Below, piece after piece: positions 17,905 to 32,785 of a stretch of 33,551 bases of DNA (positions are counted from its first letter, which is position 1; every line of letters starts with the position of its first letter). Below the pieces are notes generated by a model. It was not told the DNA's origin. It was given only the letters and a program-made list of their open reading frames with translations, and made no database searches. Both the position numbers and the translations under genes were made by a program. The stretch is from an uncultured SAR324 cluster bacterium (GTDB lineage Bacteria; SAR324; NAC60-12). The stretch lies in assembly GCA_902564345.1 (NCBI GenBank), contig CACFAY010000016.1:1-33551 (forward strand), in the 5' to 3' direction.

Positions 17905-18633
17905 ATGAATATTCAAACTGAATTTATATCATACTCGGTTGATAGCATGGATTTTAAGGGATATCTTGCTTGGGACGATTCGTTAAGTCAGGAAAGGCCG
18001 GGAGTACTTATCTTTCCTGAATGGTGGGGTTTGAATTCATACATAAAAAAAAGAACAGAACAAATTGCTGAACTAGGCTATTTAGCCCTTGGAGTGGACA
18101 TGTATGGTGAAGGTAAAATAGTAGAAACACCTGAGGAAGCAGGTTCACTTATGAATGCATTATTAGAAGATAAGGAGGCCACAAAAGCACGTCTAAAAGT
18201 CTCTTTTAATGTTCTTAAGGAACATGCTTTTTCAGATTCAAACAGACTTGGAGCCATTGGATATTGTTTCGGTGGAGCATTAGTTCTTAATATGGCACGC
18301 ATGGGCATGGGAGTCAGAGCAGTTGTTAGCTTTCATGGTGCTCTGTATTCATTTTTAAATCCCTTAGATGAAGATGTAAAAGCTAAAATACTTGTCTGCC
18401 ATGGTGATGCGGACGACTTTATCTCCAAAGAAGCCATAGAACAATTTAAATCAGAGATGGATACTGCTAAAGCAGATTATGAGTTTATTTCATACAAGGC
18501 GGCATTACACGGGTTTTCAAATCCTGCTGCAGATAAACTTGGAAGCAAATATAACATTCCACTTGCTTATAATAAAAGTGCGGATATCAGTTCATGGAAT
18601 TCTATGAAAGACTTATTAGAAAAATATTTATGA
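17905..18633 (+). CDS. dienelactone hydrolase family protein
   Basis: A 242-residue alpha/beta hydrolase of the dienelactone hydrolase family. The nucleophile is Cys121 in GYCFGG (family G-x-C-x-G), the acid is probably Asp170 in HGDADDFI, and the histidine is His202 in ALHGFSNP. Glu39 in FPEWWGL matches the glutamate that orients the cysteine in DLH. It is cytosolic (no signal peptide). In chlorocatechol pathways DLH opens dienelactone to maleylacetate, but most environmental homologues act on other esters or lactones, and no aromatic-degradation gene is nearby. It stands alone, divergent from the ABC operon. There is no clear Shine-Dalgarno sequence before the ATG. Confidence 0.88.
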   Translation: MNIQTEFISYSVDSMDFKGYLAWDDSLSQERPGVLIFPEWWGLNSYIKKRTEQIAELGYLALGVDMYGEGKIVETPEEAGSLMNALLEDKEATKARLKVSFNVLKEHAFSDSNRLGAIGYCFGGALVLNMARMGMGVRAVVSFHGALYSFLNPLDEDVKAKILVCHGDADDFISKEAIEQFKSEMDTAKADYEFISYKAALHGFSNPAADKLGSKYNIPLAYNKSADISSWNSMKDLLEKYL

Positions 18634-18777: not shown

Positions 18778-19650
18778 TCAACCTGCATAACGTCTGAGGA
18801 CCGAAATAACTTGACCATAATATCCTGTTCCAAACAAGTTGAGATGGTTCAACAAGTGATACAGCTGATACAAAGGTTCACGTTCGGCATATCCTGGAGA
18901 AATTGGATAAGAAGACTTATATGCTGAATAGAAAGCATTTGAAAATCCACCAAACAACGAGGTCATAGCCAAATCTGCTTCACGGTGACCATAGTAAACA
19001 GCCGGATCAATCAGCCATGGAGTACCTTTCTTATCAATTATGTAATTACCTCTCCATAAGTCTCCATGCAAAAGAGACGGTTTTTCCTCAGTTCCAGAAA
19101 TTAAATTTGGAACTTTCTTAATTAGATTTTCCATTAAATTCCTCATTTCAGAAGATGCATATCCATTTTTAACAGCCAAACTAGTTTGAAATTCAAGTCT
19201 ATTTTCTGTATAAAATTGAGCCCAATTAAAACTTCCTTCCTGGGAAGGTTTATTTATCTGCGGGGTGTAACCAAGAAAATTATTTTTAGAAAATCCATAC
19301 TTTTTTCCACGGTATCTATGCAGTTCCGCAAATTGTCTCCCCAACATTTCCATGCTGTAATTCGAACTGCTGTAATCGGCTTCAATCCATTGTAGTAGCA
19401 GAAAATCAGATCCTTTTTTTACGATCTCAGGAACATTTACAGCACCTGATTTGCGAAGCTCTTCTAGCCCAAGCTCTTCAGCATCAAACGTTCTTGAACC
19501 AATGCTACTTAAATGTTTGAGAAAATATATCTTCCCAGACTCAAGCAGTAGTTTGTATGAATCCGCGATACATCCTCCTGAAACAGAAGAAGAAGATTTA
19601 ATAGACTCAGAAATAATTTTTTCAATGTGAGACTTTAAATCAGGATTCAT
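18778..19650 (-). CDS. fructosamine/ketosamine-3-kinase family protein
   Basis: A 290-residue kinase of the aminoglycoside-phosphotransferase-like fold. The P-loop region SGGCIADSY has the cysteine (Cys27) typical of FN3K proteins, where it can act as a redox switch. The catalytic loop is LLHGDLWRGN (Asp197, Asn202) and the metal motif is LIDPAVYYGHREAD (Asp215). The ending YQLYHLLNHLNLFG is characteristic of the family. These kinases phosphorylate sugar adducts on protein amines, which destabilises the adduct and repairs glycated proteins; bacterial members often prefer ribulosamines or erythrulosamines. Its ATG overlaps the stop of the phosphatase gene by 4 bp, so the two are translationally coupled. 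Confidence 0.9.
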   Translation of the reverse strand: MNPDLKSHIEKIISESIKSSSSVSGGCIADSYKLLLESGKIYFLKHLSSIGSRTFDAEELGLEELRKSGAVNVPEIVKKGSDFLLLQWIEADYSSSNYSMEMLGRQFAELHRYRGKKYGFSKNNFLGYTPQINKPSQEGSFNWAQFYTENRLEFQTSLAVKNGYASSEMRNLMENLIKKVPNLISGTEEKPSLLHGDLWRGNYIIDKKGTPWLIDPAVYYGHREADLAMTSLFGGFSNAFYSAYKSSYPISPGYAEREPLYQLYHLLNHLNLFGTGYYGQVISVLRRYAG

Positions 19651-20120
19651 TGCTTATTAGATTTTAAATACTTCAAAAGACCTCCACATGCATCCTCTAA
19701 TATATCAATAACAGTTTCAAAACCCTGGTCACCTCCATAATAAGGGTCAGGAACTGAGGTTATTCTCGATACTTGACAAAAATCAGTTATACGCTTGATT
19801 TTATGTGTAAATTTATTATTATGGTCTCGCATGCTGACTTGACTGAAATTATTTTCATCCATAGTAATAATCCAGTCGAAATTTTGAAAATCTTCAAAAA
19901 TAAATTTACGTGAAATGCTGTTCAACTCATAACCTCGCAAACTTGCATGCTCTCGCATCCTTAGGTCAGCAGAATCACCTTGGTGATAATCAATAGTACC
20001 TGCAGAATCACATTCGATCTCATTTTCTTGTCCCTGCTCTTTTATTAAAAATTGCATTATACCTTCGGCGCATGGTGAGCGACAAATGTTTCCCATACAG
20101 ACAAATAGAACTCGTATCAT
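19647..20120 (-). CDS. low-molecular-weight protein tyrosine phosphatase family protein
   Basis: A 157-residue cytosolic phosphatase. The P-loop is VCMGNICRS with nucleophile Cys8 and Arg14 (C-x5-R-S), and the general acid is Asp125 in the DPYYGG loop near the C-terminus, so all catalytic residues are present. The family includes protein-tyrosine phosphatases, but members paired with fructosamine-kinase homologues act on protein-bound ribulosamine 5-phosphate in known cases. The 4-bp overlap with the kinase gene supports that role here over tyrosine-kinase signalling, since no tyrosine kinase or exopolysaccharide gene is nearby. ATG start; 378 bp of non-coding sequence lies upstream. Confidence 0.92.
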   Translation of the reverse strand: MIRVLFVCMGNICRSPCAEGIMQFLIKEQGQENEIECDSAGTIDYHQGDSADLRMREHASLRGYELNSISRKFIFEDFQNFDWIITMDENNFSQVSMRDHNNKFTHKIKRITDFCQVSRITSVPDPYYGGDQGFETVIDILEDACGGLLKYLKSNKQ

Positions 20121-21965: not shown

Positions 21966-23231
21966 ATGTTAGTTAAATTAGAAAAGTTAATTATAGGATT
22001 CATTTTTGCCTTTAGTACAGTAAGTACTGCAATGGCAGGTGGAGAGGCTGAAGTGCTTCATTGGTGGACTTCAGGTGGTGAAGCAAAAGCATTACAGGTC
22101 CTTAAGGATGATTTTGCTAAAAAAGGAGGAACTTGGAAAGATATGCCTGTTGCAGGTGGCGGTGGAGATGCTGCAAACGTTACTCTTAAGTCCAGAATAG
22201 TCGCAGGCGATCCTCCTACAGCTTCACAAATAAAAGGTCCTACTATTCAAGAATATGATGAAGAGGGTGTAGTTGCTCCTTACCACATTCATGCGGTAGC
22301 TAAAGCTGAGAATTGGGATTCTTTATTAAGTTCTCAGGTTTCAAATCATATGAAGTGTGATGGGTTCACTAAGTACTGTGCTGCTCCTGTAAACATACAC
22401 AGAATTGACTGGTTCTGGGCGAATAAAAAGGTTCTAGATTCTCATGGACTGAAAATGCCAACTTCTTGGGATGAATTTAATGCAGCAGCAAGCAAGTTGC
22501 AATCAGCAGGAATAATTCCTTTTGCCCATGGTGGTCAGCCTTGGCAGGATGCTACGGTATTTGAGGCAGTACTTCTTGGAATTGGTGGAAATGAATTCTA
22601 CCATAAAGCAATTGTCGAATTAGATATGAATGCTTTAAGTGGCCCTACTATGGTTAAAGTCTTCGACCAAATGCGTAAACTTCAAGGATTTACAGATAAA
22701 GGAATGCCAGGGAGAGATTGGAACGTGGCTACTGCAATGGTCATGAATGGTAAAGCTGCTTTCCAAATTATGGGAGATTGGGCTAAGGGAGAATTCTCCA
22801 ATGCTGGTTTAAAACCAGGTGTTGACTATTATTGTCTTCCCACTCCATCTGACCACGGATATTTGTACAATGTTGATAGTTTCATTTTTTACGGAATGAA
22901 AGGGAAAAGCAAAATCGATGGTCAAAAAGCACTTGCTAGCTCTATAATGGGTAAGAATTTCCAGAAAATTTTTAATATTTATAAGGGCTCAATTCCTGCT
23001 CGTCTTGATGTTCCAATGGATGAATTTGATATGTGTGCCAAGGGATCTGCCTCTGATCTGAAGTATTCTGCTATGACAGGTGGACTGCTACCAAGTTTTG
23101 CGCATGGAATGGCTCTTCGTAACGCCCAAAAAGGAGCGATGCAGGACGTTATCACAGAGCATTTCAATTCCAACATGTCTTCTCATGAAGCAGCTAGGAG
23201 ATTAGCAGATGCAATTCAGGCATCATTGTAA
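21966..23231 (+). CDS. sugar ABC transporter substrate-binding protein (GtsA-like)
   Basis: A 421-residue periplasmic binding protein (CUT1, SBP_bac_1 family) with a signal peptide ending near TAMA-GG (residue 25). It matches the Pseudomonas GtsA/Thermus glucose-mannose binding protein group closely: VLHWWTSGGEAKA, VAGGGGDAA, AHGGQPWQDATVFE, GRDWNVATAMVMNG, MGDWAKGEF and GSIPARLDV. That subgroup binds glucose or mannose, and gts-type importers have also been linked to xylose uptake in Pseudomonas. An AGGAG ribosome-binding site lies 5 nt before the ATG. It is the first gene of the importer. A strong hairpin separates it from the permease genes. The downstream XylB/XylD-like enzymes suggest the ligand may be a pentose or another aldose. 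Confidence 0.92.
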   Translation: MLVKLEKLIIGFIFAFSTVSTAMAGGEAEVLHWWTSGGEAKALQVLKDDFAKKGGTWKDMPVAGGGGDAANVTLKSRIVAGDPPTASQIKGPTIQEYDEEGVVAPYHIHAVAKAENWDSLLSSQVSNHMKCDGFTKYCAAPVNIHRIDWFWANKKVLDSHGLKMPTSWDEFNAAASKLQSAGIIPFAHGGQPWQDATVFEAVLLGIGGNEFYHKAIVELDMNALSGPTMVKVFDQMRKLQGFTDKGMPGRDWNVATAMVMNGKAAFQIMGDWAKGEFSNAGLKPGVDYYCLPTPSDHGYLYNVDSFIFYGMKGKSKIDGQKALASSIMGKNFQKIFNIYKGSIPARLDVPMDEFDMCAKGSASDLKYSAMTGGLLPSFAHGMALRNAQKGAMQDVITEHFNSNMSSHEAARRLADAIQASL

Positions 23232-23274
23232 TTTCTGATTATCAATCAATATTTCAGAAGGTAATCAATGCTAT

Positions 23275-23321
23275 GCACCCTCCTTAATCTTATGATTAAA
23301 TAACACGGAGGGTGCTCTTTT
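23275..23321 (+). terminator. strong stem-loop with U tract between gtsA-like and permease genes
   Basis: GCACCCTCC (23275-23283) pairs perfectly with GGAGGGTGC (23307-23315). Inside it, TTAATC/GATTAA (23284-23289/23294-23299) extends the stem, and TCTTTTT-like sequence follows. This is the best intrinsic-terminator structure in the window. Placed 44 nt after the binding-protein stop and 35 nt before the permease start, it probably acts as a partial terminator or mRNA stabiliser so that the binding protein outnumbers the permeases. Confidence 0.75.
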
Positions 23322-23355
23322 ATAGTAAAAAAATAAATAGTCAACCAATTACCAC

Positions 23356-24234
23356 ATGCTCTACTGGCTGCAAAGGAACCTTCCAAAAATTGTCATCTCA
23401 CCATCTTTTGCTGTTATTATTTGGTTTGTTTACGGTTTTGTGCTTTGGACTTTTTATGTCTCATTCACAAAGTCAAAGATGTTGCCCAGATACGAATTCT
23501 GGGGAATTGATCAGCACTTCCGCCTTTGGTCAAATCCTCGTTGGTTCAATGCAGTTGAAAACCTGCTAATTTTTACCATACTTTTTGTTTTAGTTTGTTT
23601 ACTGATTGGGATAATACTTTCAATTTTGTTAGATCAAAAGATTAGAACTGAAGGTTTTTTAAGGACAATCTACCTTTACCCTATGGCGCTATCATTTATT
23701 GTAACAGGGACAGCATGGAAGTGGATACTTAATCCTACTATGGGTCTTGAAAAGCTCTTAAATGACTGGGGATTTACAGAATTCACTTTTGACTGGCTCG
23801 TAAACAGGGATATGTCCATATATACCATTGTGATTGCAGCTGTCTGGCAGTCCTCGGGATTTGTAATGGCACTTTTTCTGGCTGGACTGCGCTCAATTGA
23901 CGATGAAATTGTCAAGGCTGCCAAAATTGATGGAGCCAGTCTCTACAGTATTTATTTAACCATAATCCTTCCGATGATGCGTCCAGTTTTCATGAGCTCC
24001 ATTGTCATTCTGCTACATATCTCGATAAAAAGTTATGACCTAGTGGTCGCTCTTACTGCGGGAGGACCAGGAATATCTTCAGACATGCCTGCTGTATTCA
24101 TGACTCAAATGGCTTTTCATCGCAGTGAAATAGGTCTAGCTTCAGCAAGTGCTGTAATGATGTTTCTCACAGTACTGGCTATTATTGTCCCTTACCTTTA
24201 TTCAGAGCTGAGAAGGCAGGATGCAAACTCTTGA
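23356..24234 (+). CDS. sugar ABC transporter permease (GtsB/MalF-like)
   Basis: A 292-residue inner-membrane permease of the CUT1 class with six likely helices. The EAA loop EIVKAAKIDGASLYSIYLTIILP meets the ATPase, and the following SYDLVVALTAGGPG stretch is standard for MalF-type sugar permeases. It lacks the long periplasmic loop of E. coli MalF, as usual for gts-type proteins. The ATG start has no Shine-Dalgarno sequence. It follows the intercistronic stem-loop, and its end overlaps the next permease by 14 bp. Confidence 0.92.
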   Translation: MLYWLQRNLPKIVISPSFAVIIWFVYGFVLWTFYVSFTKSKMLPRYEFWGIDQHFRLWSNPRWFNAVENLLIFTILFVLVCLLIGIILSILLDQKIRTEGFLRTIYLYPMALSFIVTGTAWKWILNPTMGLEKLLNDWGFTEFTFDWLVNRDMSIYTIVIAAVWQSSGFVMALFLAGLRSIDDEIVKAAKIDGASLYSIYLTIILPMMRPVFMSSIVILLHISIKSYDLVVALTAGGPGISSDMPAVFMTQMAFHRSEIGLASASAVMMFLTVLAIIVPYLYSELRRQDANS

Positions 24235-25126
24235 TTTCCAAAAGATGGAAAACATTGAACGTTCTTCGGCCCGTAAACGTATTTTTTATCGTTGGCTACT
24301 TTTTATAATTCTTGGAATCTTCGCCCTATACTATCTTGCGCCACTTTATGTAATGATTATCACTTCTCTTAAGACCATGGAAGAAATAAGGCAGGGCAAC
24401 TTAATGACTTTACCCAGAGAAATAATTTTCGATTCATGGATTACCGCATGGAGCGGTCGTGGAGGAATTGATGCTGGTAATGTATTTCTTCGCCCTTTTT
24501 TTTGGAACTCATTAAAAATGGTAGTTCCTGCAGTGGCGATTTCAACTTTCTTTGGTGCGCTTAATGGATACGCTCTCACCAAGTGGCGATTTAAAGGAGA
24601 CAATATTATATTCCTTTTGTTCCTTTTCGGTTGTTTTATTCCATATCAAGCTATTCTGCTACCCATGTCTAGAACGCTGGGTTTTCTCGGAATATCAAAT
24701 TCGATCAGCGGATTGGTCCTTGTTCACACAGTATACGGATTAAGCTTTACAACTCTATTTTTTCGTAATTACTATATCTCTATTCCTGACGAAATGATCA
24801 AGGCTGCTAGGATTGATGGAGCAGGATTTTTCAAAATTTTCTTCAAAGTACTAATACCAATATCTGCACCTATAGCAGTAGTGACAGTTATCTGGCAGTT
24901 TACAAATATATGGAATGATTTTCTTTTCGGTTCTTCTTTCTCATTTGGAGAAGCCGCACCCATCCAAGTAGCACTCAACAATATGGTTCTTACAAGTACC
25001 AGTGTTAAAGAATATAATGTAGATATGGCCGCGGCATTCATAGCGGGAATACCAACCCTGCTAGTTTATATTCTAGCAGGGAAATACTTTATCCGGGGAC
25101 TAACAGCAGGTTCAGTAAAAGGATAA
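24221..25126 (+). CDS. sugar ABC transporter permease (GtsC/MalG-like)
   Basis: A 301-residue permease with six likely helices, EAA loop EMIKAARIDGAGFFKIFFKVLIPISAP and the MalG-type NIWNDFLFG and ending FIRGLTAGSVKG. It forms the heterodimer with the GtsB-like protein. The start at 24221 overlaps gtsB by 14 bp and has GAGAAGGCAGG just upstream. An alternative ATG at 24245 would remove the overlap and eight non-conserved residues. I keep 24221 because of the ribosome-binding site and likely coupling. Confidence 0.92.
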   Translation: MQTLDFQKMENIERSSARKRIFYRWLLFIILGIFALYYLAPLYVMIITSLKTMEEIRQGNLMTLPREIIFDSWITAWSGRGGIDAGNVFLRPFFWNSLKMVVPAVAISTFFGALNGYALTKWRFKGDNIIFLLFLFGCFIPYQAILLPMSRTLGFLGISNSISGLVLVHTVYGLSFTTLFFRNYYISIPDEMIKAARIDGAGFFKIFFKVLIPISAPIAVVTVIWQFTNIWNDFLFGSSFSFGEAAPIQVALNNMVLTSTSVKEYNVDMAAAFIAGIPTLLVYILAGKYFIRGLTAGSVKG

Positions 25127-25174
25127 GAAAGACTATATTTAGAATTGTAATGCTTACAAATATTAAATAAAAAA

Positions 25175-26275
25175 ATGGCAACATTAAAAGTTATTAACCT
25201 TACAAAAAGTTTTGGAAATACTAAGGTACTTAAGCAAATTAATCTTAAGGTAAATGATGGTGAATTTATTGTACTACTTGGACCTTCAGGATGCGGGAAA
25301 TCAACTCTTCTCAATATGATTGCTGGTCTTGAGACTGTTGACGATGGAGAAATACTAATTGATGAATACGTGGTTAATCGTGTTGAACCGAAAGATCGCA
25401 ACATAGCAATGGTCTTTCAGTCATATGCTTTATATCCAGCGATGACAGTTCGTAATAACGTCATTTTTGGCCTTAAACAACGAAAAATCTCTAAAGAGCA
25501 TATAGAAAAATCATTAAATCATTTTTCAAAAATGCTCAAAATTGACCAACTCTTAGACCGCAAACCAGCACAACTTTCTGGAGGACAGCGGCAACGTGTA
25601 GCAATGGGACGGGCATTAGTGCGTGAACCACAAATTTTTCTCTTCGATGAACCATTATCCAATCTTGATGCAAAACTTCGTGTAGAAATGAGGCACGAAA
25701 TCAACAAATTGCACGAAAGCTTGGGAACGACAATGATTTACGTGACCCATGATCAAGTAGAAGCGATGAGCCTTGCTACTCGAATAGCTGTCATGAACGA
25801 AGGCATCATCCAACAGATTGGGACTCCTCAGGAAATTTATGATAAACCTAATAGCATTTTTGTTGCTGACTTTATCGGTTCTCCTGCGATAAACCTTATT
25901 CAAGGCAAATTTTACAAAGATGGAACTATATCCTGTTTTATTCCCGAACAGCAAAAAGAAAATGTTAAAATTTCTCTTAACGACTATTCATTTATTTCTG
26001 AACCAAAAGAAGGTCAGGAAATCATTTTGGGATTTCGGCCAGAACATTTAAATCTTCCAGATACTTCTCTAAATTCTCAAATGGCAGTTTCACTCAAACC
26101 TTCACTCATTGAACTTACTGGATATGAAAAGGAAGTTAGTTTTGAATTTTATGGAAACGAAATCACCGGAAGGCTGCCACGTCATATCAATATAGAATTA
26201 GGCAAGCCCATCTCACTAAGCATAGACCTGTCAGAAATCTCGATCTTTGACAAATCAAGCACAATGCGCATTTAA
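25175..26275 (+). CDS. sugar ABC transporter ATP-binding protein (GtsD/UgpC/MalK-like)
   Basis: A 366-residue ATPase with Walker [10 protein letters not shown] (36-44), Q-loop [13 protein letters not shown], the [19 protein letters not shown] signature, Walker [17 protein letters not shown] and H-loop [15 protein letters not shown]-terminal TOBE/MalK regulatory domain follows ([18 protein letters not shown]). The [12 protein letters not shown] and GRALVRxP forms are typical of CUT1 sugar importers (MalK, UgpC, MsmK). It completes the importer, 48 bp after the second permease. An AT hairpin GAATAAAT/ATTTATTC (26293-26314) follows the stop but lacks a U tract, so transcription may continue to pyruvate kinase. 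Confidence 0.94.
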
Positions 26276-26441
26276 AACAGAACATCCTAATAGAATAAAT
26301 TGATTCATTTATTCGTAGAAAAATAAATCTAAAAACTCCAAGTTTTAAATAATTTATTAAGTGTTAACCTTTCAGAGAAATTCAGTGCATAGACTGAATA
26401 AAATTTGAATACTGTCGGATTATAATCAAAGAAAATATATT

Positions 26442-27842
26442 ATGTTAAGTACAAAAATTGTTTGCACCATTGGTCCAGCAAGTGATACCTCTGAAGTATT
26501 AGAAGACCTAGCTGAGGCAGGAATGAATGTCGCTCGATTAAATTTCTCGCATGGCACTCATACTTCGCACAAAAAAATTATTAAGCAAATTCATGAATTG
26601 AACCAAAGCAGAAAATTCCCTATTGCAATTATGCTTGATACACAGGGACCAGAAATCAGGACTGGCAATGAAAAGAGTGCTCTTAAGTCAAAAGAAATAG
26701 TTACTGTTAGCTGCCCACCATTTAAGGAGAATGAAGGAAATATTCATGTAAATTACCCTGCTTTAAAAAGTGATCTGAAACCAGGAAACTATATTTCTCT
26801 AGACAGTGGATTGGTAAAATTAAAAGTTATTGGAAAACACAAAAAAGGACTTAAGTGTGAGGTTATAGACGGTGGCATCGTAAATGGTCACAGACATGTG
26901 AATTTACCAGGTACTGTAGTTAAACTTCCTGGTATAACCAAAAATGACAAGAGAGACATACTTTTTGGTATAAAACATAAAGTTAATTTTATTGCCCTTT
27001 CTTTTGTACGTAATTCTGAAACAATTAAGGAAGTAAGAAAACTATTGGGAAAACATGCTGAGCATACAGAGATAATAGCTAAAGTTGAAAATTTGGAAGG
27101 TGTCGAAAGACTTGAAGAAATAGTTAAAGAAGCTGATGGAGTCATGGTAGCAAGAGGAGATTTAGGAATAGAAGTAGAGTTGGAAGAAGTTCCACAGATT
27201 CAAAGACGAATAGCATTTTTGTGTGCCAAATATGGAAAACGTTCAATTGTTGCGACGCATATGCTGGAATCAATGATTGAACATCCAGTACCAACGAGAG
27301 CAGAGGTTACAGATGTTGCAAATGCAATATTTGAAGAGTCAGATGCAATAATGCTTTCTGGAGAAACTTCAATTGGGAATTATCCTGTTCGTTCAGTAGA
27401 AACATTGAAACGTATAGCAAAACACACAGAAATTTTTCCAGGAGTAAATTTTTCTAAAAATTTGATTATGGAAAAAAATGGGCAACATCTTGCTGCATCT
27501 GCAATCCAAATTGCTTCAGATTTAAAAATTAGAGCAGCTGTTGTAATCACTCGCAATGGTCGTGGTGCAAGATATCTCTCAAATCTTAGACCACACGGAA
27601 TTATTATCTACTCATTTACTGAAAATGCTGATGTTCTCACTTCAAATGTATTGTACAGAGGGGTTTATCCTTTTCTTCTAAAATTAAAGAAAAACCCTGA
27701 AGATAATATACAGGACGCACTAAAGATGCTAAAAGATACCAGAAATTTTAATTCTAATGAGCAAGTAATAGTCTTAGCCAATATTCTCACGGGAGAGGGT
27801 TTTAACACTTCTCTGCAGGTACGCACTATTCCTTCTGATTGA
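26442..27842 (+). CDS. pyk: pyruvate kinase
   Basis: A 466-residue enzyme (usual bacterial length 470-480) that converts PEP plus ADP to pyruvate plus ATP. It opens with TKIVCTIGPAS and RLNFSHG, has MLDTQGPEIRTG, the catalytic-lysine/acid region IIAKVENLEGV, MVARGDLGIEVELEEVP, and the ADP/PEP segment MLESMIEHPVPTRAEVTDVANAI with DAIMLSGETSIG. The segment before MLES reads ATH rather than the common ATQ. The C-terminal allosteric domain (about 350-466) is intact. A TATAAT box at 26421-26426 lies 15 bp before the ATG without a matching -35. It sits between the sugar importer and the sugar-acid genes, fitting a role in central carbon flow from imported sugar. Confidence 0.95.
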   Translation: MLSTKIVCTIGPASDTSEVLEDLAEAGMNVARLNFSHGTHTSHKKIIKQIHELNQSRKFPIAIMLDTQGPEIRTGNEKSALKSKEIVTVSCPPFKENEGNIHVNYPALKSDLKPGNYISLDSGLVKLKVIGKHKKGLKCEVIDGGIVNGHRHVNLPGTVVKLPGITKNDKRDILFGIKHKVNFIALSFVRNSETIKEVRKLLGKHAEHTEIIAKVENLEGVERLEEIVKEADGVMVARGDLGIEVELEEVPQIQRRIAFLCAKYGKRSIVATHMLESMIEHPVPTRAEVTDVANAIFEESDAIMLSGETSIGNYPVRSVETLKRIAKHTEIFPGVNFSKNLIMEKNGQHLAASAIQIASDLKIRAAVVITRNGRGARYLSNLRPHGIIIYSFTENADVLTSNVLYRGVYPFLLKLKKNPEDNIQDALKMLKDTRNFNSNEQVIVLANILTGEGFNTSLQVRTIPSD

Positions 27843-28063
27843 ATATAGTTTAGTCGTTTTAGTATTTAATTAACTATTTAAAAGTGGTAAACAATCAATA
27901 ACTTTTTTTAAATATGTTGTGCTTATTTAATTTTAAATTGTTTTTAGTATATTTCTTAATAATTTAAAAATTTGATAATCAATAAAAAAAATAATATTAC
28001 TTCGATATTTGATGGGAGTCCATCCTATATATATTAAATAATTTAAAAAATTATTAAGAAATA

Positions 28064-29308
28064 ATGAGTATTGATACTACAAACATTCAGGATCAGATTT
28101 GCAGGTTAAAACACTCAGTAAACAAAAACTTTACAGATATCAATAAACGCTTCAGTGAGATTGAGGCCATTGTTAAAGAAGAAATAAAAATAATTGAATC
28201 TTATAAAAATAAAGGAGAATCCGTAATCCCTGAGATTATTTTTTCTGACATATTAAAAAATAAAGTTGATAACAAAACAGTTCAATTATTAAGGCGTCAT
28301 GGTGCAGTAGTGATTAGAAATGTTTTCCCAAGAAAAAAATCTGAAAAATGGTATAACCAGCTTTATAGTTATCTTGGTCAAAATGGCTATTACGAACAAA
28401 ATGATCCCGGATTAGACAATTATTTCAGTGACCTTAAATCTGACAAGCCTCAAATATGTTCTGTTTACTGGTCAAAGTCCCAAGTTCAGGCAAGACAAAG
28501 CATTGAAATGTCTAAGACTAAATCTTTCTTGAACCATATCTGGAATTACAAGAGAAAAAACACAAAATACTTTGATCCCGACAGGGAATGTACCTACGCT
28601 GACCGAGTAAGAATGAGGCAGCCAGGAGATACTTCTCTAGGACTTTCTCCTCATGTAGATGGAGGTTCAATTGAACGTTGGCTAGGTAAAAATTATCAGA
28701 ATGTATATCGACCACTGTTTCAAGGTAATTGGAAGGATTACAATCCTTTCAATGGAGAATATAGAACTGAAGTAGAGGGTATTGATTCTCCTGCCGTATG
28801 TCGTGCGTTTAGAACATGGCAGGGATGGACAGCTTTGACCCAACAAGGTCCAGAAGATGGTACATTGCAGCTTATTCCCACTGTAAATAGTATTAGCTAT
28901 GTTTTATTACGACCATTTATGAAAGATGTTCCTGAAGAAATACTTTGTGGAGCAGTTGAGGGTCGTGCTCAAGCAATCACGGAAGAATGGCATTCTTTAC
29001 TGTTGCGCGGACTAGTTTCAATTCCAAGAGTAGAGCCTGGTGACACGGTTTGGTGGCATTCTGATTTGGTACATGCAGTTGAGCATGAACACAAGGGCAA
29101 AGATGTGAGTAGCGTTATTTACATTGGATGCACTCCATTTTGTGAGCGAAACTTACAATTTTTGGAGCGTCAAAAACAAACATTTTTGGATGGGAGAAGC
29201 TCACCTGATTTTGCTCCCGAAGACTTTGAAAAAAACTATCCTGATCGATCAACCATGGAAGATTTGAATGAATTGGGTATGAAACAAATGGGTTTTTCTA
29301 ATTGGTAA
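28064..29308 (+). CDS. DUF1479/YbiU-family putative Fe(II) dioxygenase
   Basis: A 414-residue cytosolic protein of the DUF1479 family (E. coli YbiU). The fold is the double-stranded beta-helix of Fe(II)/2-oxoglutarate oxygenases. The probable metal triad is His197-x-Asp199 in SPHVDGGS and His337 in WWHSDLVHAVEHEH. Other conserved stretches are RRHGAVVIRNVFP (80-89), YADRVRMRQPGDTSLG and RTWQGWTALTQQGPEDGTLQLIP. The first 55 residues are a helical, possibly coiled-coil lead. No substrate is established for the family as far as I know. It lies 222 bp after pyk and 82 bp before the XylB-like gene, inside the sugar-catabolism block, which suggests a sugar-related or sugar-acid substrate. A GATGG/CCATC hairpin (28011-28024) precedes the start. 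Confidence 0.85.
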   Translation: MSIDTTNIQDQICRLKHSVNKNFTDINKRFSEIEAIVKEEIKIIESYKNKGESVIPEIIFSDILKNKVDNKTVQLLRRHGAVVIRNVFPRKKSEKWYNQLYSYLGQNGYYEQNDPGLDNYFSDLKSDKPQICSVYWSKSQVQARQSIEMSKTKSFLNHIWNYKRKNTKYFDPDRECTYADRVRMRQPGDTSLGLSPHVDGGSIERWLGKNYQNVYRPLFQGNWKDYNPFNGEYRTEVEGIDSPAVCRAFRTWQGWTALTQQGPEDGTLQLIPTVNSISYVLLRPFMKDVPEEILCGAVEGRAQAITEEWHSLLLRGLVSIPRVEPGDTVWWHSDLVHAVEHEHKGKDVSSVIYIGCTPFCERNLQFLERQKQTFLDGRSSPDFAPEDFEKNYPDRSTMEDLNELGMKQMGFSNW

Positions 29309-29390
29309 TGAATAAAACAAAATTTTCACATATAATTTAGACAAAATAATCTCAAAAAAAGCTTTAATCAGTTAAGCTTAAAATAATAAT

Positions 29391-30164
29391 ATGGATAAAT
29401 TTAAATTTCCAATATTTCCTGATTTAAAAGACAAAACGGTACTAATTACAGGAGGAGGCTCAGGTATTGGAGCATCTTTTGTAGAAGCGTTTGCAAATCA
29501 GGGATGCCGAGTAGCTTTTGTTGATATCCAGAAAAAATCTTCAGAAGAGCTTGTACACAGTTACGCCTCAGCAGATCATACTCCAATGTTTATGCATTGT
29601 GATCTGAGTAACATAACTGCACTCAAAAAAACTGTTAAACAAGTAGAAAAGGATCTTGGTGCTGTACGTGTTCTGATCAATAATGCAGCAAATGATCAAC
29701 GTCATGAGCCTGAGGATGTGACCCCTGAATACTGGGAGGAAAGACTAAAATTAAATCTGAATCACTATTTTTTTGCCTCACAGGCTGTTCAACCAGAAAT
29801 GGCTAAGGCCGGAGGAGGAGCAATCATAAATTTGGGGTCATGCAGTTGGCACATGGCGCTTGAATTTATGCCTGCTTATACGACTGCTAAGGCTGCAATA
29901 GAAGGACTCACCCAAAGTCTTGCAAGAGCATATGGTAAACATCAAATCAGAGTTAATTGCATTATTCCAGGTCAGATTTGGACACCCAGACAAATGAGGG
30001 ATATACTCACTCCAGAATATGAACAGTTCATGAACGAAAAACAATGCATTCCTGGCAGGATTCTGCCTGAAGACGTAGCCCAGCTAGCCCTTTTCCTTGG
30101 TTCAGATTCAGGTCGTATGTGTACCCGCAGAAATTACTATATAGATGCAGGAATAGGAGCATAG
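29391..30164 (+). CDS. SDR sugar dehydrogenase, XylB (D-xylose 1-dehydrogenase)-like
   Basis: A 257-residue short-chain dehydrogenase. Cofactor motif ITGGGSGIG (19-27), with Asp45 at the end of beta-2 favouring NAD; NNAAND (97-102); catalytic Ser150, Tyr163 and Lys167. Beyond generic SDR motifs it shares distinctive stretches with Caulobacter XylB as I recall it: FPDLKDKTVLITGGG, NDQRHEPEDVTPEYWEERL.LNL, GSCSWHMALE.MPAY and the ending YYIDAGIG. XylB oxidises D-xylose to xylonolactone with NAD. Related enzymes accept other aldoses, so the sugar is not certain. The first half of a Weimberg/Dahms pathway is completed by the XylD-like gene two genes on. The next SDR gene starts 2 nt after its stop. 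Confidence 0.85.
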   Translation: MDKFKFPIFPDLKDKTVLITGGGSGIGASFVEAFANQGCRVAFVDIQKKSSEELVHSYASADHTPMFMHCDLSNITALKKTVKQVEKDLGAVRVLINNAANDQRHEPEDVTPEYWEERLKLNLNHYFFASQAVQPEMAKAGGGAIINLGSCSWHMALEFMPAYTTAKAAIEGLTQSLARAYGKHQIRVNCIIPGQIWTPRQMRDILTPEYEQFMNEKQCIPGRILPEDVAQLALFLGSDSGRMCTRRNYYIDAGIGA

Positions 30165-30166
30165 AG

Positions 30167-30919
30167 ATGAATCAAATTGATTTGAAAAACCGCAAAGCAG
30201 TAGTAACAGGAAGTGCACAGGGTATAGGTATGGCAATTGCTGAGAGATTGCTTGATTCAGGTGCCTCTGTATCTCTTTGGGACCGAGACAAATACTTACT
30301 CAAAAAAACATCAGACTCACTTTCCTCCAAAGGAAATGTAGAGACTCTTGAAATGGATGTTTCTGACTTAAATTCGGTCAGAATTGCTGCGAAAAAAACA
30401 AAAGAAATGCTTGGAAAAATTGAGATTCTGGTTTGCAATGCAGGAATAGCAGGGCCCACTGCAAAAATTTGGGAATATCCTGCAGAGGAATGGCAACAGG
30501 TGATAGATATTGACTTAACCGGAGTATTCAACTGCCTTCATATAGTTTCACCAATGATGATTGAACAGAATTATGGCAGAATTCTAAATGTTTCTTCCAT
30601 AGCAGGAAAAGAAGGTAACCCTAATGCTGCAGCATACAGCGCCGCAAAAGCAGGAGTCATTGCACTTACAAAATCACTAGGAAAAGAACTCTCTGGATAT
30701 AATATTGCTGTGAACTGCATTACACCAGCTGCTGCAAAAACAAGAATCTTCGATCAGATAAGTGAAGAACATATTAATTACATGTTAAGCAAAATTCCAC
30801 GAAATAGATTCTTGAAGGTTGAAGAAGTTGCTTCAATGGTAGCATGGCTTTGTTCCGAAGAAAATTCTTTTACCACGGGAGGAGTATTCGATCTTAGCGG
30901 TGGACGTGCAACATACTAA
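30167..30919 (+). CDS. SDR oxidoreductase, possible 2-keto-3-deoxy-sugar-acid dehydrogenase
   Basis: A 250-residue SDR. TGSAQGIG cofactor motif (14-21), Asp39 favouring NAD, NAG at 91-93, catalytic Ser144, Tyr157 and Lys161. I moved the start from the track's 30119 to ATG 30167, because AGGAG (30155-30159) lies 7 nt upstream and the SDR fold begins there; the longer form would overlap xylB by 46 bp. IAGKEGNPNAAAYSAAKAGVI, NCITPAAAKTRIF and the ending FDLSGGRATY resemble 2-keto-3-deoxy-fuconate/pentonate 4-dehydrogenases from memory. That would oxidise the product of the downstream dehydratase. A generic FabG-like or gluconate 5-dehydrogenase activity remains possible. Confidence 0.75.
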   Translation: MNQIDLKNRKAVVTGSAQGIGMAIAERLLDSGASVSLWDRDKYLLKKTSDSLSSKGNVETLEMDVSDLNSVRIAAKKTKEMLGKIEILVCNAGIAGPTAKIWEYPAEEWQQVIDIDLTGVFNCLHIVSPMMIEQNYGRILNVSSIAGKEGNPNAAAYSAAKAGVIALTKSLGKELSGYNIAVNCITPAAAKTRIFDQISEEHINYMLSKIPRNRFLKVEEVASMVAWLCSEENSFTTGGVFDLSGGRATY

Positions 30920-30997
30920 TAATAATAATTATATATTTAACATTCCCCTTAACATAAAAAATTTTTTCCAGTCACATTTAAAATTATTTTTAATTTT

Positions 30998-32785
30998 ATG
31001 GTCTCAATGAAAAACAAACAAACATCAAGATTGAGAAGCCGTGAATGGTTTGACATTCCTGGAGATCCAAGTTCAACAGCTCTTCACATTGAGCGTTACA
31101 CAAATTTTGGTATTAAGGCTTCTGAACTGCGCTCAGGAAAACCAATCATAGGTATTGTCCAGACTGGCAGCGACCTCGTCCCATGCAACAGAGTTCATGT
31201 TAACCTTGCACAGCGCGTTCGGGAAGGGATCTGTGAAGCAGGAGGAATAGCAATCGAATTCCCTGTCCATCCTATACAGGAAAGCGGTAAACGTCCAACA
31301 GCTGCACTCGACAGGAATCTTCAGTACTTAAGCCTAGTTGAGGTACTCTTTGGCTATCCTTTAGATGGTGTTGTACTTACCATAGGCTGTGACAAGACAA
31401 CTCCTGCCCTTTTGATGGGGGCAGCAACCGTAGACATACCATCAATCTGTCTTTCTTCAGGTCCAATGATGAACGGATACTGGAAAGGGGAACGATGGGG
31501 TTCTGGTACTATAGTTTGGAAAGCAAGGCAATTACTGGCTGCAGGAAAAATAAATGAAGATGAGTTTATCAATTTGGTCGTTGATACTACAACTTCACCT
31601 GGCTACTGTAACACTATGGGTACAGCCACAACCATGAATTCTCTTACTGAAGGTCTTGGAATGTCACTTCCTGGATGTGCTTCCATTCCAGCAACACTTA
31701 GTAAAAGGGCAGAAATAGCTTACATGTCAGGTCTCCGAATAGTAGAGATGGTTGAGGAAGATTTGACTCCGACCAAAATAATGACCCTAGAATCATTTGA
31801 AAATGCAATAGTTCTTAATTCAGCACTTGGAGGTTCAACAAATGCACCCATTCATATCAATGCTATTGCTAGGCATGTCGGAGTGAAGCTCAAGATTGAG
31901 GATTGGCAAAAAATAGGTTTTGAAATACCTCTTCTAGTGAATATGCAGCCTAGTGGCAAATATCTTGGTGAAGATTTTTATCGTGCTGGAGGTGTACCGG
32001 CAGTAATGAATACTTTGCTTGCCGCAGGAAAGCTAAATGATAAGGCAATTACTGCTAATGGGAAAACAATAGCTACAAATTATGCAAAATCATCAATTTT
32101 GAATAAAGATGTAATTCGTGACTTTAATAACCCTATTCTCGAAAATGCCGGTTTCATAATACTTAAAGGAAATATCTGTGAGGCTGCGGTAATGAAAACA
32201 TCAGCAATTAGCGAAAACTTCCATAGGAATTATCTTTCTAAGCCAGGAAGCAAAAATGTTTTTGAAGTCCGAGCTATAGTATTTGAAGGTCCAGAAGACT
32301 ATCACCAACGTATTAATGACCATGAGTTGAACATTGATTTAAACTGTATGCTTGTTATTCGCGGATGTGGACCTGTAGGCTATCCTGGCTCCGCAGAGGT
32401 AGTTAACATGCAACCACCTGATCGTTTAATTCGCAAAGGTATTACTGAATTGCCAACTCTTGGTGACGGACGCCAAAGTGGAACCTCAGGGAGTCCGTCT
32501 ATACTTAATGTTTCTCCGGAATCATCGATAGGTGGTGGATTGTCTTTGCTAAAAACAGGAGACAAGTTGAAAATTGACTTAAATAAATACACTATTAATG
32601 TTCTACTTAATGAAACAGAATTACAGAAACGCCGTGACTTTTTACAATTGAATCTGACTGAAAATCAGACTCCCTGGCAAGAAATATATAGAAACACAGT
32701 TGGGCAGTTATCAGGAGGAGGTATAATTGAACTTGCAGAAAAATACAAAAAAATTCGGCATACAATTCCACGAAATTCGCACTAA
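30998..32785 (+). CDS. sugar-acid dehydratase of IlvD/Edd family, XylD (xylonate dehydratase)-like
   Basis: A 595-residue iron-sulfur dehydratase that would convert an aldonate to its 2-keto-3-deoxy form. The three cysteines expected to hold the [2Fe-2S] cluster are Cys63 (VPCNR), Cys131 (GCDKTTPA) and Cys204 (GYCNTMGTA), with Lys133 as the carbamylated Mg-binding lysine. The whole length resembles Caulobacter XylD: SREWFD.P, YTNFGI..ELRSGKPIIGI.QTGSD, EFPVHPI, NMQPSGKYLGEDF, PTLGDGRQSGT and the ending TPWQEIYR. That places it in the pentonate/hexonate subgroup rather than IlvD (branched-chain amino acids) or Edd (6-phosphogluconate). D-xylonate is most likely; L-arabinonate or another aldonate is possible. 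ATG 30998, with an alternative ATG three codons on. Last plus-strand gene of the block. Confidence 0.88.
   Translation: MVSMKNKQTSRLRSREWFDIPGDPSSTALHIERYTNFGIKASELRSGKPIIGIVQTGSDLVPCNRVHVNLAQRVREGICEAGGIAIEFPVHPIQESGKRPTAALDRNLQYLSLVEVLFGYPLDGVVLTIGCDKTTPALLMGAATVDIPSICLSSGPMMNGYWKGERWGSGTIVWKARQLLAAGKINEDEFINLVVDTTTSPGYCNTMGTATTMNSLTEGLGMSLPGCASIPATLSKRAEIAYMSGLRIVEMVEEDLTPTKIMTLESFENAIVLNSALGGSTNAPIHINAIARHVGVKLKIEDWQKIGFEIPLLVNMQPSGKYLGEDFYRAGGVPAVMNTLLAAGKLNDKAITANGKTIATNYAKSSILNKDVIRDFNNPILENAGFIILKGNICEAAVMKTSAISENFHRNYLSKPGSKNVFEVRAIVFEGPEDYHQRINDHELNIDLNCMLVIRGCGPVGYPGSAEVVNMQPPDRLIRKGITELPTLGDGRQSGTSGSPSILNVSPESSIGGGLSLLKTGDKLKIDLNKYTINVLLNETELQKRRDFLQLNLTENQTPWQEIYRNTVGQLSGGGIIELAEKYKKIRHTIPRNSH

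Follow-up and report, generated by a model that had tools for sequence, protein, structure and literature searches.

Introduction

Ribose 5-phosphate is a strong intracellular glycating sugar, and the adduct it forms is 5-phosphorylated. Ketoamine 3-kinases require a free sugar hydroxyl, and the 3-phosphate they produce is unstable, as worked out in the chemistry of the Van Schaftingen group. Since the adduct of ribose 5-phosphate carries a 5-phosphate, a phosphatase must act before the kinase. The same two-step logic, dephosphorylation followed by 3-phosphorylation, applies to human MDP-1 and FN3K (fructosamine-6-phosphatase and fructosamine 3-kinase); MDP-1 is a HAD-type phosphatase for hexose adducts and is unrelated to the low molecular weight (LMW) phosphatase family. 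Phosphatase genes adjoining bacterial 3-kinase genes were reportedly also noted in the work that described those kinases.

Bacterial ribulosamine/erythrulosamine 3-kinases were described by Gemayel et al. (2007, FEBS J, PMID 17681011), and protein-ribulosamine-5-phosphatase was equated with human LMW-PTP-A by Fortpied et al. (2007, PMID 17472574). The same two activities have been proposed for ribose 5-phosphate adducts in a putative deglycation system of S. aureus, ptpA/SACOL2605 (PMC5617981, citing Gemayel 2007). To judge from the separate locus numbers given in that source, SACOL1939 and SACOL2605, the S. aureus genes are not an overlapping pair. The gene pair described here is a clean further example of a repair function that is already published, and not a discovery, because ribulosamine phosphatases and 3-kinases have both been described (Gemayel 2007; Fortpied 2007).

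Results

The window analysed is a 33,551 nt stretch of contig CACFAY010000016.1, from an uncultured SAR324 cluster bacterium. Two genes on its reverse strand form the pair: the first encodes an LMW protein-tyrosine-phosphatase-family protein of 157 aa (19647..20120), and the second a fructosamine-3-kinase-family protein of 290 aa (18778..19650). They share a 4 bp ATGA stop/start overlap (19647..19650), which suggests that translation of the phosphatase and the kinase may be coupled. The coordinates, the overlap and both family assignments agree with the first-pass annotation. The genome carrying the window (1.86 Mb, about 51% complete) has one PF01451-type and one PF03881-type gene, and these are each other's neighbours. 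Promoter-like sites at the locus were no commoner than expected by chance, and every terminator-like site fell within the kinase gene. A phosphatase-kinase gene fusion was looked for among relatives and none was seen; a 410 aa phosphatase ORF (G057, L102:82-1312, reverse strand) appears instead, by eye, to join a Sua5/YrdC-like domain to the LMW phosphatase.

In a Pfam search, the kinase matched PF03881 (Fructosamin_kin) with 280 bits against a cut-off of 22.4, covering profile positions 8–284 of 288. Its best solved relative by sequence comparison is the Arabidopsis protein-ribulosamine 3-kinase (PDB 6oid, 180 bits). The catalytic Asp, substrate Trp, P-loop Ile, Lys/Glu pair and metal-binding Asp/Asn are all kept (aligned residues I28, K45, E58, D197, W199, N202 and D215), as are F236, N268, H269 and F273 when compared with human FN3K. 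Among the residues tested in human FN3K, only I25, D217 and W219 were essential (PMC13223202); these correspond to I28, D197 and W199. Human H291 is replaced by Leu, as it is in the Arabidopsis enzyme. Compared with the bacterial ribulosamine/erythrulosamine 3-kinases and 6oid, the protein shares the Pfam family, the catalytic and substrate residues and the P-loop Cys, and differs in sequence divergence alone.

Specificity for fructosamine or ribulosamine is not predictable from the FN3K active site (PMC13223202). Published work on homologues in bacteria and plants points to ribulosamine or erythrulosamine instead of fructosamine, so by analogy the former are the more likely substrates of this kinase.

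Cys27 of the kinase, within the motif GGCIADS, occupies the position of Cys24 in human FN3K, a redox-active residue of the P-loop (PMC11148063), and of the corresponding cysteine in the Arabidopsis P-loop. This Cys is retained across nearly all of the taxonomic family and much of a second phylum, while 13 of 60 relatives have Ser at the position and 5 have Met. Most of these 18 relatives are still paired with a phosphatase, and redox control is therefore optional at best. The cysteine reported in the first-pass annotation is thus present, whereas the redox control attached to it does not hold as a general property of the pair. A redox switch in the kinase is conceivable here, but it is not what holds the two genes together.

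The phosphatase matched PF01451 (LMWPc) with 123 bits, far above the cut-off. Ranked first among its PDB relatives were the Entamoeba-type protein tyrosine phosphatase (3jvi/3ido) and cyanobacterial slr0328 (5o7b, 158 bits), with human LMW-PTP lower (88 bits). Wzb-like NCBIfam models gave merely 42–50 bits, against cut-offs of 243–247. The CX5R-S P-loop (C8-M-G-N-I-C13-R14-S15) and the DPY general-acid loop (D125-P126-Y127, within DPYYG) are both present. Residues C12, C17, R18, S19, D129, Y131 and Y132 of human LMW-PTP correspond to C8, C13, R14, S15, D125, Y127 and Y128, and the Tyr at human position 49 is kept as Y45. C13 is the second P-loop Cys that is usual in LMW-PTPs. The match to human LMW-PTP-A thus extends over family, C12, C17, R18, D129, Y131/Y132 and Y49, but residue 50 is His here and Glu in the human enzyme.

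The W-loop Tyr/Trp-His (human positions 49/50) was considered as a signature specific to pairing and was rejected. The His is invariant across the 53 paired phosphatase sequences that cover the position, but it is also found in the unlinked L090, the kinase-less L099 and slr0328. As unpaired members of the wider bacterial subfamily carry it too, it marks the subfamily and not a function.

If the two genes act together, their association should be conserved in relatives, and a count over three groups found it at 54 of 58 kinase loci. Within the taxonomic family, the phosphatase lies directly upstream in 19 of the 20 genomes with a clear kinase; a phosphatase of the same subfamily accompanies each of the 30 kinase loci examined in the second phylum; and in a third, all five strong kinases (above 220 Pfam bits) have this partner, with the three weaker kinases examined being unpaired. 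Loci from metagenome-assembled genomes labelled Marinilabilia and Chlorobiota are also paired. Adjacency by chance would be expected at about 0.1% (a rough estimate, from 1–3 phosphatase genes among a few thousand), so pairing at this frequency is not accidental. At the genus level, none of the 17 genomes has one gene without the other, some of the absences perhaps reflecting incomplete assemblies. Kinases were also sought in three further phyla (17, 4 and 1 genomes) and none were found.

Spacing within the pairs is tight. Of the 54, 32 overlap by exactly 4 bp (10/19 in the family, 18/30 in the second phylum and 4/5 in the third), and in 53 the nearest kinase start codon is between −29 and +8 bp of the phosphatase stop. 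Pairwise identities of the phosphatases and kinases are strongly correlated (r = 0.95, a value to which shared ancestry contributes), and the two trees are broadly congruent. This fits joint inheritance without proving interaction, given the contribution of shared ancestry.

The exception in the family is G022, where kinase and phosphatase are on different contigs. At this kinase locus (L107:9831-12178, C34) the kinase is followed by a gene for a hydroxyacylglutathione hydrolase (glyoxalase II-like), another anti-glycation function.

Members of each family also occur alone. Phosphatases of the subfamily are found without a kinase in G055 and G045, showing that the subfamily is not specific to deglycation, and kinases without a phosphatase are present on plasmids of Azoarcus, Lactobacillus and Sphingobium and at L073–L075. 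Neither family is, therefore, obligately tied to the other.

Gene order around the pair is largely kept in the genus: a polyamine-type ABC operon, often a dienelactone hydrolase-like gene, the kinase and phosphatase, a Liv-type binding protein, a sugar ABC transporter, SDRs and an EDD dehydratase. In the window, a dienelactone hydrolase-family gene (17905-18633) faces the kinase, and is at the same place in several, not all, members of the genus. The region 21966-32785 encodes the sugar ABC transporter, pyruvate kinase, a Gig2-like oxygenase-fold protein, two SDRs and an IlvD/EDD dehydratase, and looks like a non-phosphorylative aldose-oxidation block that is syntenic within the genus. Nothing else of the locus is conserved with the kinase and phosphatase in other genera or phyla, and the pair is therefore the conserved unit. 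An earlier suggestion, that uptake of aldoses by this block creates the need for repair, is not borne out, as the linkage is confined to the genus and elsewhere the pair stands without the block.

Discussion

The two genes probably encode a ribulosamine 5-phosphatase and a ribulosamine 3-kinase, a translationally coupled operon that would repair protein damage caused by glycation with ribose 5-phosphate or erythrose 4-phosphate. Lysines reacting with ribose 5-phosphate (or erythrose 4-phosphate) would give protein-bound ribulosamine 5-phosphate (or erythrulosamine 4-phosphate). The LMW phosphatase would take off the terminal phosphate via a cysteinyl-phosphate intermediate, using Cys8, Arg14 and Asp125, and the freed ketoamine would then be phosphorylated at O3 by the kinase with ATP, with Asp197 as the base. 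The unstable 3-phosphate would decay, and the adduct would be lost from the lysine. We infer this substrate, order of action and repair role from the family assignments and the conserved pairing; phosphatase followed by kinase is also the order favoured in the first-pass annotation.

The phosphatase might instead be a conventional enzyme for phosphotyrosine (or phosphoarginine) in proteins, with a kinase that is merely co-operonic. It belongs to the family of proven tyrosine phosphatases and has their active site, and phosphatases of about 50% identity on Bacteroides plasmids are annotated only as LMW-PTP. We nevertheless consider this unlikely, since the pairing is kept across several phyla with minimal spacing, and other LMWPc-family paralogues in these genomes sit away from the kinase. 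With a phosphotyrosine role, a tyrosine autokinase would be expected. The superfamily is shared with Wzb/Wzc-type systems, in which an LMW-PTP accompanies a BY-kinase, but a BY-kinase was not found in the 31 family genomes: none had a match above cut-off to the tyrosine autokinase model TIGR01007, including the 19 with a linked phosphatase and the window genome, itself about 51% complete. The model did match above cut-off in three more distant genomes. The result for the family disfavours a phosphotyrosine role, although other tyrosine or arginine kinases may be present.

The overlap and strict pairing also suggest coupled synthesis and possible contact between the proteins, as would suit a regulatory pair instead of two successive repair steps, the target of the phosphatase being the kinase or its phosphoproduct. 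From FN3K chemistry, the kinase product decays by itself and would need no downstream phosphatase, making such regulation very improbable. A bifunctional complex seems quite improbable too; in it, the enzymes would touch and channel the dephosphorylated adduct, and the C8/C13 and C27 loops would be jointly inactivated by oxidation in the lineages that keep the Cys. A role in degrading glycated amino acids or free sugars after their import, via the neighbouring transporter and dehydratase genes, draws on the position of the pair in the genus, next to the sugar ABC transporter, the two SDRs and the IlvD/EDD dehydratase. The pair is, however, divergent from the sugar block, and the block is absent near it in other genera and phyla, so that catabolism is hardly to be expected.

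Sequential repair by the phosphatase and then the kinase is a pathway known mainly from enzymology in a few species, and the conservation seen here gives it strong comparative support. Over several phyla, the two genes behave as a single inherited unit. Together with the lack of an evident tyrosine-kinase partner in the family, this makes sugar-adduct phosphatase a good candidate annotation for the LMW 'tyrosine phosphatases' of such pairs.
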